From a virus: DNA of 64,000 nt. The DNA lies in the IMG/VR virus record IMGVR_UViG_3300046373_000049, positions 1 to 64,000 of that record; one strand, 5' to 3'. A program made the position numbers and the translations under genes. Under the pieces are notes generated by a model that saw only the letters and a program-made list of their open reading frames with translations, did no database searches and was not told the origin of the DNA. Of this stretch, positions 52,637 through 63,915 are shown one piece after another. Within the stretch, counting starts at the first letter, position 1. Each line of letters begins with the position of its first letter.

Positions 52637-52878
52637 GCGATAGGCCGTGAAAACATCGGATGATCGAAGGTTGACTAGATATACGACTTTCATCAGGCTA
52701 CCTCACCATAATGCTTCGGGTGAGGTTTGGACTTGAGGCAAAGAGAAACTGTGTTTTGATGTTTGCGAATCATTGGCACTTCAGTGGTTCGCAAACGTCC
52801 CTTGGGACGGGGAGTTAGATCAAACACTCCGGTATGCGCCAACGCCCAGCCAGCAGTAAGACTTCGATTACAGTAGAT

Positions 52879-60034: not shown

Positions 60035-60418
60035 TTAAACGTAAAGACGCGGTTTGAAAATGCCGCCGACCTCGACAGCCAGAACGTCGAACCATTCGAG
60101 CGCCTTGTGTACCGCGTGCAGGGCGCTGTCGGCAGTGGTGACGAACTTGTGGGCCACGAAGCCGTGCTGGATCGAGTAGACCCCAGGCGCCACTTCCTTG
60201 ACCGTCAGCCAGCCGTAGATCGTCGGCATCTTCGTTTCCTTGCTGGCCTTGTGCTGCTGGCGCGGCCATGCCTTGTGCGACGTGTAATCGTGGAAGGCCA
60301 GCGCCCATATCGAGTAGCCGGTCAGGATCAGCAGCGGATGGGCGACCAGATCATGCAGGATGGCCCAGCCGCGTTTCTCTTCGGCGTTTGCACACGCCTC
60401 GCGTGGATCAGTTTTCAT
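60035..60418 (-). CDS. Hypothetical protein with membrane segment, 127 aa
   Basis: Start at 60418 overlaps the next stop (TAATG). Residues about 20-45 hold a hydrophobic helix (LHDLVAHPLLILTGYSIWAL), followed by basic residues and a beta domain (GWLTVKEVAPGVYSIQHGFV). It may be a membrane-associated phage protein. Function unknown. Confidence 0.55.
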   Translation of the reverse strand: MKTDPREACANAEEKRGWAILHDLVAHPLLILTGYSIWALAFHDYTSHKAWPRQQHKASKETKMPTIYGWLTVKEVAPGVYSIQHGFVAHKFVTTADSALHAVHKALEWFDVLAVEVGGIFKPRLYV

Positions 60419-60720
60419 TACTGCCACACTGGATGGGATTCTTGATTGACGCTCAGGCCGACGATGACGCCTGCATCGTCCAGGCTGATCGTCACGCCGT
60501 TATCTTGCAAGCCGTCCAGGAAGCCTTCCACGAACAGGTGATGCTCTTGCGTGTGGGCGGCGTAACCGGCTGCGATGGCGGCGGCCTTGATGTCCGTGAA
60601 AATCTGGCCCAGGCGCACCGTCGTGACGGCGTGCAGCCCGCGCTGGTAGGCGACCCCACTGGCCTGCTGTTCCAGGATGGTGGCAGTCATTTGCTGAAGC
60701 TCTTGCGTTTGGTTTTTCAT
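60418..60720 (-). CDS. Hypothetical helical protein, 100 aa
   Basis: Downstream of a two-hairpin leader. Helical with a conserved-looking core (AVTTVRLGQIFTDIKAAAIAAG) and an acidic C-terminal part (VTISLDDAGVIVGLSVNQE). No known family. The leader suggests separate regulation of this gene and the one after it. Confidence 0.55.
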   Translation of the reverse strand: MKNQTQELQQMTATILEQQASGVAYQRGLHAVTTVRLGQIFTDIKAAAIAAGYAAHTQEHHLFVEGFLDGLQDNGVTISLDDAGVIVGLSVNQESHPVWQ

Positions 60721-60788
60721 GATGGTGCTCCTTCAGTGGGGTTATCGGGAAAGGCTCCCGTGTATGCGCCCGAAGACGCATACGCTGG
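60721..60788 (-). promoter_or_regulatory. Two-hairpin 5' leader, copy 1
   Basis: On minus: CCAGC, then stem GTATGCG/CGCATAC (60783-60777 with 60768-60762), then ACGGGA-gcctt-TCCCGAT (60760-60746), then GAAGGAG and ATG 60720. It shares layout with three other leaders although the first stem differs in sequence. Confidence 0.6.
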
Positions 60789-60793
60789 CCCTT

Positions 60794-61405
60794 TCAGTCG
60801 GCATGGCGGGATGCCCACGCTGGCGTGTTGTAGTACTTGTCGTTCGCATCTGGACGAAGGCCCATGATGACGCCCGTGAAGCGACCATCATCGAAATTGA
60901 CCACGGCGCGGTCTTTGTCATGGCCAATATAGAGCTGGTTGAATTTGCGCTGTCCGGTCAACATGATGTTGGCCTTTTTGAACGCCTCCAGATATGCCAC
61001 TTCAAGCTGCGCAGGCGTATTGCTTACCGGCTTATTCGGCATCACCTTGGCGTAGTCGGGGAACGTCGCGTCTATCATGTTGAAGGTCTTCGTCACCCTC
61101 GTATAGGCGTCATGCATCGACCATAAATTTCCTGGGCCGTCGTGCGACAGGATTATGGTATGGGAGCCATTCTTTGTCGGCTTGAAAAATTCAATCACGT
61201 CACGCGGGATGATGTACTGGCCCGGCATGAATTGACCAGTGCCTGAAAGTCGAAGCACGCCCATGATGTGCCCGTTCGTTGCGACGAGCCGACTTTCCGT
61301 CTTGCCGATTTCCAGGAGCACGCCGTTCAAGTAGTAGCGGATGTCCTGCTTCGCCGCGAGTAACAGCATGGCGGCGAGGTCGCGCTTTTTGATTTCGTGG
61401 CTCAT
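60794..61405 (-). CDS. Half-length beta-clamp-like protein
   Basis: A 203-residue protein. The start (KKRDLAAMLLLAAKQDIRYY), then LNGVLLEIG, LVATNGHIMGVL and GQYIIPRDVIEFF, match in order the domain pattern of DNA polymerase III beta subunits, where LVAT-D-G-H-R is a hallmark. At 203 residues it is about half a bacterial clamp, so it might form a different ring or act on the host clamp. ATGA overlap with the gene at 61402. Confidence 0.6.
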   Translation of the reverse strand: MSHEIKKRDLAAMLLLAAKQDIRYYLNGVLLEIGKTESRLVATNGHIMGVLRLSGTGQFMPGQYIIPRDVIEFFKPTKNGSHTIILSHDGPGNLWSMHDAYTRVTKTFNMIDATFPDYAKVMPNKPVSNTPAQLEVAYLEAFKKANIMLTGQRKFNQLYIGHDKDRAVVNFDDGRFTGVIMGLRPDANDKYYNTPAWASRHAD

Positions 61406-61695
61406 GATGTTTTGCCCCCAGCTTGCTTGATGGCGCCGATGGCTTGGCTTGGAGCTTCGTTCATTTCGCGGATGGTTTCGGCCTGGAGTGCGCTGTCACG
61501 CAGGTTCACGTCCTTCATCATCATGCGATGCAGTTTGAGCATGCGCTCCAGCGCGGCCAGCAGGCCCGGCGCGGCTTCGTGTACGGCGCGCAGCTTGAGC
61601 TGCTGTTCGTACCAGTCGTCCGTGATGACGATGTGCTTCGGTGGCGGCACAAAGTCGATGGTGACGATGGGGGATGGTTTTCTGTGGTCACTCAT
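61402..61695 (-). CDS. Hypothetical helical protein, 97 aa
   Basis: N-terminal strand segment (PIVTIDFVPPPKHIVITDDW) and a helical C-terminus (LLAALERMLKLHRMMMKDVN). It overlaps the preceding gene by 8 nt and the clamp-like gene by ATGA. A pairing with the clamp-like protein is suggested by position only. Confidence 0.55.
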   Translation of the reverse strand: MSDHRKPSPIVTIDFVPPPKHIVITDDWYEQQLKLRAVHEAAPGLLAALERMLKLHRMMMKDVNLRDSALQAETIREMNEAPSQAIGAIKQAGGKTS

Positions 61696-61990
61696 GATGC
61701 GCTCCCTGTTTTGTGAAGCGTGGCACGAAGAAGTCTTTCAGCTTTCCCGTGTCGCGGTCGATGTGCCGGATGATCCCGCCAACATCGTGTGAAAGATTGA
61801 AGTTATCCGCTTCCAGCAGCTCTTTCAAGCGCAGCGGATTGCCGTGATTATGGACGGCAGTGATGTCCATTTCGACATCCAGTTGATCCAGCTCGACGCC
61901 ATTAGCTCCATACAGATCAACTGCGCGTTTGGCGATTTCCATAATCAGCTTGCGGTCTTCCTTGCTGACCTTCCAGTTTAAGACTGCCAT
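61688..61990 (-). CDS. Hypothetical protein, 100 aa
   Basis: Start at 61990 after AAGGAG, behind a two-hairpin leader. The sequence reads AVLNWKVSKEDRKLIMEIAK, then a DVEMDITAVHNHGNPLRLKE segment and a helical C-part. It resembles small phage proteins of unknown function. It overlaps the next gene by 8 nt. Confidence 0.58.
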   Translation of the reverse strand: MAVLNWKVSKEDRKLIMEIAKRAVDLYGANGVELDQLDVEMDITAVHNHGNPLRLKELLEADNFNLSHDVGGIIRHIDRDTGKLKDFFVPRFTKQGAHHE

Positions 61991-62054
61991 GATATTTCTC
62001 CTTCGTTGCGGGTCAAAGCGCCCGTAACAGCCCACGGGTATGGGCTGTGGCTGG
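61991..62054 (-). promoter_or_regulatory. Two-hairpin 5' leader, copy 2
   Basis: On minus: CCAGC, stem ACAGCCCA/TGGGCTGT (62048-62041 with 62034-62027), then CGGG-N8-CCCG (62024-62009), then AAGGAG and ATG 61990. The first stem has 8 bp and is unrelated in sequence to copies 1, 3 and 4. Confidence 0.6.
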
Positions 62055-62058
62055 AGCT

Positions 62059-62835
62059 TTAGTTGCCAAAGATAGCGCGCAAAACGTCTTGCAGTTCATC
62101 CTCATGCGTGCGTGGCTTGCCGTGCCGTGGATCGGCAATACGGGCAGCCGCTTCTGCCTTGAGGATTTCCGCTGGCGACAGTTGGCCGCGCTTCAGCGTG
62201 AATTTGAACGTCTTCAGATCAACGTCGATCTTCAGCGTGTCTCCAGGCTTCGGGAAATCCCGGCGCGCATCTTTGATAACGGCATCGACAAGCTTGCCGA
62301 AGAGCGTGTCCAGGCCAATATGCCCGAGCTTTTTGTATCGACGTGCTGCCACGCGGTAGCCGATGCGAATCCAGCCACGCACGTCTTCCTTCACGCTGCG
62401 AAACTTTTCAACGTTAGTTACCAACGTTCTTTGTTCGCCGGTTTTGTGCATCGGCGCAGTGTTGGCTGCATTTATTTCAGTGTCGCTCAATAAGGCGCTC
62501 AACATTCTTTCGGCACCAGCATCAAGCGGTTTATTTGCCAGCCCATGTGGGGGCTTCGGCACCTTGTAATTTTGCATCGCAAGGAACACGTCCAAGTCGC
62601 TGGCGCTGGCTTCGTACATGTTTTCCGGGTTCCCGTAAAAGCGCCCGTATAAGGTCACGCCGAAGGCGCGCAGCTCACCATCGAATGCTGACCTGTCGTC
62701 CAGGTGCTCCAGCACGTCATGTGCGACGACGTGGGCCAAGCCTGGATCGAAGTTAGGACAGCAGTTAGGCTTCCAGCCGTCGATGGCTTTCGTCACCGTC
62801 CAGTCGAAGGTGCGCGAGCGGATGTGTGATGTCAT
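62059..62835 (-). CDS. Hypothetical protein, 258 aa
   Basis: Start at 62835 after AAGGAG, behind a two-hairpin leader. Residues about 30-45 contain LAHVVAHDVLEHL, a His/Asp/Glu cluster that might bind metal. The C-terminal half is basic (RVAARRYKKLGHIGLDTLFG) and ends with a charged helix. No known family; could be an enzyme or regulator. Confidence 0.52.
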   Translation of the reverse strand: MTSHIRSRTFDWTVTKAIDGWKPNCCPNFDPGLAHVVAHDVLEHLDDRSAFDGELRAFGVTLYGRFYGNPENMYEASASDLDVFLAMQNYKVPKPPHGLANKPLDAGAERMLSALLSDTEINAANTAPMHKTGEQRTLVTNVEKFRSVKEDVRGWIRIGYRVAARRYKKLGHIGLDTLFGKLVDAVIKDARRDFPKPGDTLKIDVDLKTFKFTLKRGQLSPAEILKAEAAARIADPRHGKPRTHEDELQDVLRAIFGN

Positions 62836-62900
62836 GATTACTCTCCTTATGTTGACCGGGACAATCCCCGAAGATGCCCCGCACGCGAGGCATCTGCTGG
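62836..62900 (-). promoter_or_regulatory. Two-hairpin 5' leader, copy 3
   Basis: On minus: CCAGC, stem AGATGCC/GGCATCT (62895-62889 with 62878-62872), then CGGGGATTGTCCCG (62870-62857), then AAGGAG and ATG 62835. The second hairpin is identical in sequence to that of copy 4. Confidence 0.62.
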
Positions 62901-62905
62901 CGCTG

Positions 62906-63100
62906 TCAGGTGCGTATCTGGAACTGCGCAGGGCAGTATTCATTCCAGATGCGGCCACTGGGATCGAGGCGCTTGCGCGCTTCGGCCAGAGCTTCTTGCT
63001 CACGCTTGCCGCGACGGTATTCACCGTCATCATCAGCGTGGGCGAAATACCAGTCGAAACCCTTGAGCCGGTTTCGGTACTGGTCGAGGTCTTCGATCAT
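62906..63100 (-). CDS. Small helical protein, 64 aa
   Basis: Starts MIEDLDQYRNRLKGFDWYFA, then a charged helix (GKREQEALAEARKRLDPSGR). It overlaps the upstream gene by ATGA (63097-63100). Function unknown. Confidence 0.5.
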   Translation of the reverse strand: MIEDLDQYRNRLKGFDWYFAHADDDGEYRRGKREQEALAEARKRLDPSGRIWNEYCPAQFQIRT

Positions 63101-63369
63101 GCGGGTACTCCTTCAGTTTCACGGAAGCGTTTGCGGGATACCGACAGCGCAATCGGCACGCTGTCGGCTGGGTTTGCAACGATGTCCTCCGGGTCTTCCC
63201 ACTGGACGGGCACCGTGGCAATGTAGTGCGACGGCGGGTCGATGTCTGCCATCGCCTGTTCGCGTGAGTCGTACAGATCGCCAGCGTGGCGGTCTAAGGT
63301 ATTGGGTTTGCCTTCGCGGTGAAACCATCCACTGCGATAAATGTTCATGTAGCAAATTTTGGTAGCCAT
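63097..63369 (-). CDS. Hypothetical protein, 90 aa
   Basis: Start set at 63369 (MATKICYMNIYRSGWFHREG), behind a two-hairpin leader. It has a basic N-terminus, a DSREQAMADIDP segment and an acidic middle. No family recognised. Confidence 0.55.
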   Translation of the reverse strand: MATKICYMNIYRSGWFHREGKPNTLDRHAGDLYDSREQAMADIDPPSHYIATVPVQWEDPEDIVANPADSVPIALSVSRKRFRETEGVPA

Positions 63370-63448
63370 TGGAATTCTCCTTGGTGGGGTCATGGGAGGG
63401 TATCGGGACAATCCCCGTGATAGCGCCCACTCAAGGCGCTATCGCTGG
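63370..63448 (-). promoter_or_regulatory. Two-hairpin 5' leader, copy 4
   Basis: On minus: CCAGC, perfect 9-bp stem GATAGCGCC/GGCGCTATC (63443-63435 with 63427-63419), then CGGGGATTGTCCCG (63417-63404), then a 21-nt spacer, AAGGAG and ATG 63369. It lies right after the DoxX-like gene stop. Confidence 0.62.
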
Positions 63449-63453
63449 TGCTG

Positions 63454-63915
63454 TCAGGAAAGCGGGAAGATCAGTGCGTCGATGCTGTACTGGCCTGTGC
63501 CAGCCAGGACGATGACGGCCAGCAGGAACAGGTACAGCACTTCGGGCAGGTAGAGCCAATCAGCTACCCAGTCGCCGCGATTGATCGGATGGTAGGCCGC
63601 CACCTTAGCCTTCGATTCGCAGCAGCAGGCGACGACGCAGATAATCATCAGCACACCAGCATTGAAGGCCGACAAGAAGCCCAGCGCCAGCAGCAAGCCG
63701 GATGCGAATTCCCATCCAGGCACCCACCACTGCATGAAGCCCAGCGCCGGGATGTGATTCTTGCGCAGGTTCGCCGTCAGCGAGTTATGGCGCCCGACGT
63801 TGAACAGTTTATTGAAGCCCGATATGGCGAAGAACGTGCCGACACAGAGGCGGGTCAGCGCCAGTGCAGCATCGGGGGCAAGCAGGCCGTGGGCCGCGAC
63901 ATTGAGGATATCCAT
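63454..63915 (-). CDS. DoxX-like membrane protein
   Basis: A 153-residue protein with four likely membrane helices (about 18-35, 60-80, 84-98, 125-145) and a TRLCVGTFFAISGFNKLFN opening typical of DoxX and related quinone-reductase-type subunits. It is of host-like metabolic type and unusual in a phage. It might affect respiration or the membrane during infection. Its start follows the stop of the preceding gene by one base, so an upstream promoter likely drives both. Confidence 0.65.
   Translation of the reverse strand: MDILNVAAHGLLAPDAALALTRLCVGTFFAISGFNKLFNVGRHNSLTANLRKNHIPALGFMQWWVPGWEFASGLLLALGFLSAFNAGVLMIICVVACCCESKAKVAAYHPINRGDWVADWLYLPEVLYLFLLAVIVLAGTGQYSIDALIFPLS

Follow-up and report, generated by a model that had tools for sequence, protein, structure and literature searches.

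Structures that lie between the cistrons of phages are commonly taken for terminators or processing sites, or dismissed as noise. In the window analyzed here, the 64,000 nucleotides that form bases 1-64000 of the 66,459-base virus record IMGVR_UViG_3300046373_000049 (IMG/VR), we describe a compact, covarying RNA element that is found again and again in diverse phages and prophages, between genes that are unrelated to one another, and is fixed in position by the stop codon of the gene before it and the start of the gene after it. In its working the element is closest to translational pseudoknots, such as those of T4 gene 32 and repZ, and in its placement to the extended start-associated sequences (ESAS) of cluster K mycobacteriophages, but the comparison does not place it within either group. 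In these mycobacteriophages the start-associated sequence (SAS) has 13 fixed bp and sits at the start site, while the ESAS consists of a conserved inverted repeat of 17 bp that, according to the authors, has little support as a hairpin in mRNA (PMC3203893). Like our element, SAS and ESAS are repeated and lie just upstream of the starts of non-structural genes in larger-than-usual intergenic gaps, and the ESAS also places an inverted repeat upstream of the ribosome-binding site (PMC3203893). Unlike SAS/ESAS, however, the element has helices that covary, possesses a third helix and contains the upstream stop codon, and the 13-bp SAS GGGATAGGAGCCC was not found in the Shine-Dalgarno (SD) regions of the copies, which read AAGGAG, CGGAG, AGGAG and similar.

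The gene 32 leaders of T4, T2 and RB69 likewise place a pseudoknot upstream of the ribosome-binding site of a phage mRNA (PMC3014915), a likeness that for the element depends on the possible coexistence of two of its helices, P1 and P3. The T4 leader is a single operator that is bound by gp32 for autogenous repression and has an A+U-rich stretch up to the ribosome-binding site; neither an overlap with a stop codon nor an inserted hairpin is described for it (PMC3014915), whereas both occur in the element, in which P1, P2 and P3 are each supported about 20 nt upstream of the start codons. No gene for a single-stranded DNA-binding protein was recognised among the diverse downstream genes, only some of whose proteins were scanned against family libraries. 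The repZ pseudoknot is coupled to how the leader frame repY is translated and terminated. In ColIb-P9 this pseudoknot (PK-repZ in Rfam) is a switch that controls the translation of repZ and repY (PMC12370729). It differs from the element in being long-range and controlled by an antisense RNA, and Rfam scans of the element gave no PK-repZ match. The put RNA of phage HK022 suppresses termination through the zinc-binding domain of the RNA polymerase beta' subunit. Similar to the element, put contains two adjacent stem-loops and lies in a phage transcript, in this case the early transcript, but it is a ~70-nt RNA in two copies that has RNA polymerase as its target, folds with a minor-groove triplex and has no link to stop or start codons (PMC9378689). 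One put copy lies downstream of each early promoter, while eight copies of the element occupy successive gene junctions of one operon. Another small pseudoknot, the STAXI motif (RF01728), is found near mobile-element genes including antirestriction genes, but as two or three tandem repeats with UUCG loops (PMC2864571), whereas the copies of the element are not in tandem; in four element-bearing records the best score of the RF01728 model was 10.9 bits, compared to a cut-off of 40.5, and fell off the element.

All eight copies in the record are on the minus strand in a single operon, four within the window and four just past its end, and nine copies are present in a near relative (G003, locus L008). 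A first-pass annotation of the letters alone had noticed the four window copies as minus-strand leaders with two hairpins; they lie where it placed them, with the first stems that it gave (P2 in the list below), and the 14-nt CGGGGATTGTCCCG of the second hairpin is indeed identical in two of them. This two-hairpin plan was correct but incomplete, as it lacked both the helix P1 and the connection with the upstream stop codon. A covariance model placed the window copies at 60747-60797, 62011-62063, 62857-62909 and 63404-63457; with all helices included, the copies are as follows.

60746..60797, minus strand: element copy 1; P1 AAAGG (60794-60790)/CCTTT (60754-60750), P2 GTATGCG (60783-60777)/CGCATAC (60768-60762), P3 CGGG (60760-60757)/CCCG (60749-60746)
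62009..62063, minus strand: element copy 2; P1 AAAGC (62060-62056)/GCTTT (62019-62015), P2 ACAGCCCA (62048-62041)/TGGGCTGT (62034-62027), P3 CGGG (62024-62021)/CCCG (62012-62009)
62857..62909, minus strand: element copy 3; P1 GACAG (62907-62903) with TTGT (62864-62861) and a shared C, P2 AGATGCC (62895-62889)/GGCATCT (62878-62872), P3 CGGG (62870-62867)/CCCG (62860-62857)
63404..63457, minus strand: element copy 4; P1 GACAG (63455-63451) with TTGT (63411-63408) and a shared C, P2 GATAGCGCC (63443-63435)/GGCGCTATC (63427-63419), P3 CGGG (63417-63414)/CCCG (63407-63404)
Record 64062-64126, minus strand: tail copy
Record 64705-64757, minus strand: tail copy with hairpin 2 decayed, without a nearby start codon
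Record 65305-65357, minus strand: tail copy
Record 65643-65696, minus strand: tail copy

From 5' to 3' the element consists of P1a over the preceding stop codon, C-N-CCAG, the hairpin P2, P3a (CGGG), a loop with P1b and finally P3b (CCCG), after which about 20 nt including the SD lead to the next start codon. P2 is the first stem of the earlier annotation and P3 its second hairpin, while P1 is formed in four of four window copies by the 4-6 nt directly 5' of CCAGC, which pair with the loop of hairpin 2. The P1 types of the record are AAAGG/CCUUU, AAAGC/GCUUU (in two tail copies as well), GACAG/UUGUC (two copies), GAUAG/UUAUC and ACAGC/GCUGU, and a further type, GACUG/UAGUC, was found outside it. 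The P3 loop, which contains P1b, is 6-8 nt long with 4-5 of these paired, and P3 itself retains GGG/CCC, with four pairs in either register (CGGG/CCCG or GGGC/GCCC). The base of P2 frequently reaches into CCAGC and abuts P3a, which would allow coaxial stacking. The nucleotides that are kept are CCAG, which is unpaired, CGGG and UUGUCCC, the helices being otherwise variable. In a variant class (L166, L230, L231 and L237) CNCAC replaces CCAG and P1, P2 and P3 are retained, with a perfect GGG..CCC; its third helix reads GGGAAATTGTCCCG (L166:478-530, L231:9047-9099, L230:6585-6637 and L237:2260-2312). Furthermore, the apical loop of P2 is frequently GUGACAG, a repeat of the P1a sequence (e.g. record 65643-65696 and L173:4441-4494) that could compete with P1a for P1b. 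The comparison of copies thus shows three helices, and the element is either an RNA of the pseudoknot type built from all three or one that switches from one fold to another.

In an alignment of 47 sequences (A2), 88% of the P1 and P2 pairs were formed, 13 of 17 showed double changes, and the covariation score was 0.508, compared to 0.167 in shuffled and at most 0.086 in slid alignments. These figures prove little alone because the members were selected by a hairpin descriptor that demands pairing, and searches with one strand left free were therefore carried out. When P2 was left free (GACAGCNCCAGCN{18,48}GGGNNTTGTCCC), 27 of the 34 distinct gap sequences formed a perfect hairpin of at least 6 bp, where shuffles expect 3.2, and five of the remaining seven folded as a hairpin with a bulge or mismatch; the anchored arms were 83% paired, compared to ~64% when re-dealt (0/10000). 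With P1b free and P1a set to TGACAG, the loop was nearly always NNTTGT, and two true elements had CGCTGA (CAGCG/CGCTG), while for TGAAAG the loops of the true elements were CACTTTTA, CGCTTTTG or AATTTT. With P1a free and P1b fixed, approximately 35 of 38 matches paired, GACAA and ACAGT among them. Likewise, L257, L263 and L268 carry GAAAG/CTTTT ahead of a gene start resembling that of L134 and L135, which have GACAG/TTGTC. Among copies found without a P1 criterion or fetch patterns all clear elements paired, as GATAG/TTATC, ACAGC/GCTGT, GACTG/TAGTC, GAAAG/TTTTC or GACAG/CTGTC, and L006, L111 (at 6414) and L215 were imperfect or register-shifted. Permutation of 14 P1 types, which is illustrative as the types were hand-picked and two came from model-found copies, gave 46.9 core pairs on average compared to 56 of 56 observed, a value equalled once in 100,000. 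Taken together, the one-strand-free searches confirm P1 and P2 in a non-circular manner. Moreover, G.U outnumbered A.C in P1 by 43 to 3 on the sense strand (omitting column 8, which is unpaired in the GACAG class), and this excess points to a sense-strand RNA. The proposal of a conserved RNA element acting in cis, made in the first-pass annotation, is therefore borne out by further copies in relatives, by covariation in unbiased tests and by the orientation with the flanking genes, upstream of the ribosome-binding site, whereas its alternative of a repeated promoter-like unit is disfavoured by this wobble asymmetry and by the upstream stop codon within the element.

In 52 of 58 distinct copies the upstream open frame ends with a stop codon in or beside P1, 4-11 nt ahead of CCAG, and in 36 this codon is at exactly -8. 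At this position TGA supplies the first letters of TGACAG, UAA and UAG occur as well, and where the stop codon extends into P1a (TAAAGC, GATAG) P1b matches it. The next start mostly follows 16-22 nt past P3 (38 of 58, the automatic choice of start being wrong in some). In the G000 operon, followed from the gene at 65626 down to that at 60720, the element was present at seven of seven junctions with gaps >30 nt (one copy decayed) and at none of the eight junctions of <=8 nt, counted after several gene starts had been corrected by eye. Phasing to stop and start, as well as orientation, is thus shown by sequence comparison, and in the window all four stop codons overlap P1.

60794..60796, minus strand: TGA stop of the gene upstream of copy 1
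62059..62061, minus strand: TAA stop of the gene upstream of copy 2
62906..62908, minus strand: TGA stop of the gene upstream of copy 3 (62906-63100)
63454..63456, minus strand: TGA stop of the gene upstream of copy 4

Stop-codon readthrough or frameshifting was considered and rejected, given that the frame past the stop in copy 4 closes within a few codons and that all three stop codons are in use.

The 76 downstream proteins fall into 41 clusters, which include small unknowns, a beta-clamp-like protein and an ArdC-like protein (assigned by eye). An upstream family, DUF7227 (named from a homologue in L250), is followed by four different families, one downstream family is preceded by four different upstream families, and a DUF7227-like gene was found downstream of the element too. 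Since the same upstream family occurs with varied downstream families and vice versa, these gene contexts show the element to be a portable junction.

Pattern scans revealed relatives of the element in ~80 IMG/VR contigs, and the covariance-model search that the first-pass annotation had suggested found further copies in the same record and in relatives. In one Burkholderiales family 9 of 401 genomes gave a model match at E <= 0.001; some of these are weak and probably due to chance, and the best two lie in prophages. Single copies were found in the cultured Alcaligenes phage CASP1 (OR960973; 11209-11265, minus strand, between CASP1_00024 and CASP1_00023) and in a Comamonas thiooxydans plasmid with terminase, a phage-plasmid (NZ_CP083940; 6060-6113). 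The model found no element in the ordinary sequenced relatives BcepIL02, a Yuavirus, KT1 and SM1, and a class-level scan of 369 genomes gave no match at E <= 1e-5 under strict filters, by which absence is not proven. Four matches from a pattern scan of genome contigs look like chance and were rejected, as were the weak family-level matches L217-L220, which look like coding sequence, and a blastn match in a Serratia plasmid, for which the model gave no confirmation at that site. Consistent with the earlier remark that no named RNA family has this form, Rfam 15 gave no family at or above the gathering cut-off in the window and 13 further loci, only two irrelevant matches up to E 10 in L003, and in a further scan sub-threshold matches of which none fell on the element. 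The element is a real and widespread RNA family that, as far as Rfam 15 and a search of the open-access literature reach, is apparently undescribed.

The explanation that we favor, while giving it somewhat less than an even chance, is that of a cis-acting intercistronic element of phage mRNA that governs the initiation of the next cistron as a translational connector. Its structure and phasing are shown by the comparisons above, and from these we infer an effect on translation, the sign of this effect and the absence of a dedicated ligand. P1 and P3 would form simultaneously as a kissing-type pseudoknot with P2 inserted, as suggested by a loop of 6-8 nt, by a P3 that stays constant and by the variant class, in which P3 persists although the CC partner of GG is gone, and this pseudoknot would sit between a ribosome terminating at the upstream stop and a 30S subunit initiating at the downstream start. 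By ribosome geometry, termination would place the ribosome over P1a and the linker as far as the foot of P2, while an initiating 30S would begin right after P3. Occupation of P1a and the CCAG linker during termination would open P1, with P2 and P3 staying folded, and P1 would close upon departure of the ribosome. In this manner the element would set the strength of de novo initiation at the next cistron, independent of or gated by upstream translation, and would be employed as a portable connector at gene junctions without overlap. Because the element is locked to the stop codon as well as to the start codon, a translational role is suggested over one in transcription or processing, and the conservation of unpaired nucleotides suggests a particular fold or a ligand. 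That the element represents a new class, a portable "stop-to-start connector" with the stop codon in a pseudoknot strand, in which termination would remodel the RNA and set the initiation of the next unrelated gene, is a possibility that we hold with more doubt than confidence.

Several observations weigh against a translational connector of this kind. By nested energy models, P1+P2 is the more stable combination in 54 of 58 copies, with a margin of ~3 kcal/mol over P2+P3, and P1 and P3 may therefore alternate instead of coexisting. Most phages carry one or two copies, and a few matches lack an obvious downstream SD or start (L133 at 7341, L212). P1b does not sequester the SD, which argues against a simple on/off switch, and the retention of CCAG, CGGG and UUGUCCC, needless for a mere spacer, hints at recognition by a factor. 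Anti-SD pairing by P1b was rejected, the mean duplex energy being -4.00 kcal/mol compared to -4.09 kcal/mol with re-dealt leaders. If initiation is under the control of the element, nature would here offer a module for polycistronic expression, and also a way to study how phages tune expression when accessory genes are shuffled; as a true connector it would be the phages' standard part between cistrons at every junction without gene overlap. The copy in the cultured phage CASP1 makes the element directly testable.

Three of the alternatives, namely a switch, a protein site and a role in processing or anti-termination, partly overlap. In a bistable switch that dispenses with the pseudoknot, P1, lengthened by CC/GG into a long hairpin through P2, would exclude P3, and a ribosome on the stop codon would flip the RNA to P2+P3. 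Such a switch would agree with the nested minimum free energy structure, which is P1+P2 in most copies with P2+P3 ~3 kcal/mol higher, and with the perfect complementarity of AAAGCGCC/GGCGCTTT in L005 and L006. However, the variant class has P1 and a perfect GGG..CCC without the CC of CCAG, the 6-8 nt loop of P3 suits a kissing geometry, and P1b pairs with the SD region no more than in re-dealt leaders, all of which make the switch unlikely. The conservation of unpaired CCAG and of P1b/P3 nucleotides amid variable helices, together with eight or nine copies along one operon, would also suit a binding site for a trans-acting protein, either a phage regulator or a host factor (e.g. Hfq, ProQ or a ribosomal protein), which would repress or activate a set of accessory genes, and gp32, which binds a pseudoknot upstream of T4 gene 32, provides a precedent (PMC3014915). 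We consider such a site improbable, however, as the neighbours share no common gene (41 clusters among 76 downstream proteins) and a shared phage regulator would be encoded elsewhere.

A function in RNA processing, stability or anti-termination is quite unlikely in our view, although the element fills the untranslated stop-to-start gap, which it might shield against Rho or RNase E, and although put, as a comparable signal to RNA polymerase, likewise has two stem-loops (PMC9378689). Anti-termination needs neither phasing to stop and start nor a copy at one junction after another along an operon, the two put sites, putL and putR, follow the two early promoters (PMC9378689), and a generic shield would not conserve sequence. 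The occurrence of varied genes after the same upstream gene and element, and vice versa, might finally suggest a DNA-level recombination site that joins gene cassettes in the manner of integron attC, but the strand-specific G.U wobble in P1, the coupling to stop and start codons and the compensatory P1 changes at the corresponding junction (L257/L263/L268 compared to L134/L135) render it highly improbable. Identity with attC itself was rejected, as attC requires RYYYAAC / GTTRRRY core sites at its ends, while the conserved ends of the element are GACAG/CCAG and UUGUCCCG instead.

The genes that flank the window copies are listed below.

60418..60720, minus strand: gene downstream of copy 1, 100 aa, unknown, with the SD GAAGGAG ahead of ATG
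60794-61405, minus strand: gene upstream of copy 1, 203 aa, beta-clamp-like
61688..61990, minus strand: gene downstream of copy 2, 100 aa from ATG, PHROG 12453, unknown
62059..62835, minus strand: gene downstream of copy 3 and upstream of copy 2, 258 aa, PHROG 7111, unknown
63097..63369, minus strand: gene downstream of copy 4, 90 aa, unknown
63454-63915, minus strand: gene upstream of copy 4, DoxX-like membrane protein, an auxiliary-type phage gene

The 203-aa protein has matches to Pfam DNA_pol3_beta_2 and to the PHROG polymerase processivity factor; its best match is a PHROG named "RusA-like Holliday junction resolvase", a label that is probably wrong, and its homologues adjoin elements in other phages (L146, prophage L247). 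Upstream of the element-bearing operon, at 65.7-66.46 kb of the record and thus past the window, ~0.75 kb at the record end are without convincing genes and likely represent a promoter region. Directly downstream of an element copy in L133 (6806-6939, plus strand), a sub-threshold Rfam match to sX6 was obtained (E 0.0013). Unrelated to the element, the pseudoknot scan also found a long inverted repeat on the plus strand of the window at 52752-52812, GTTTGCGAATC..GGTTCGCAAAC, which is followed by TCCC..GGGA.

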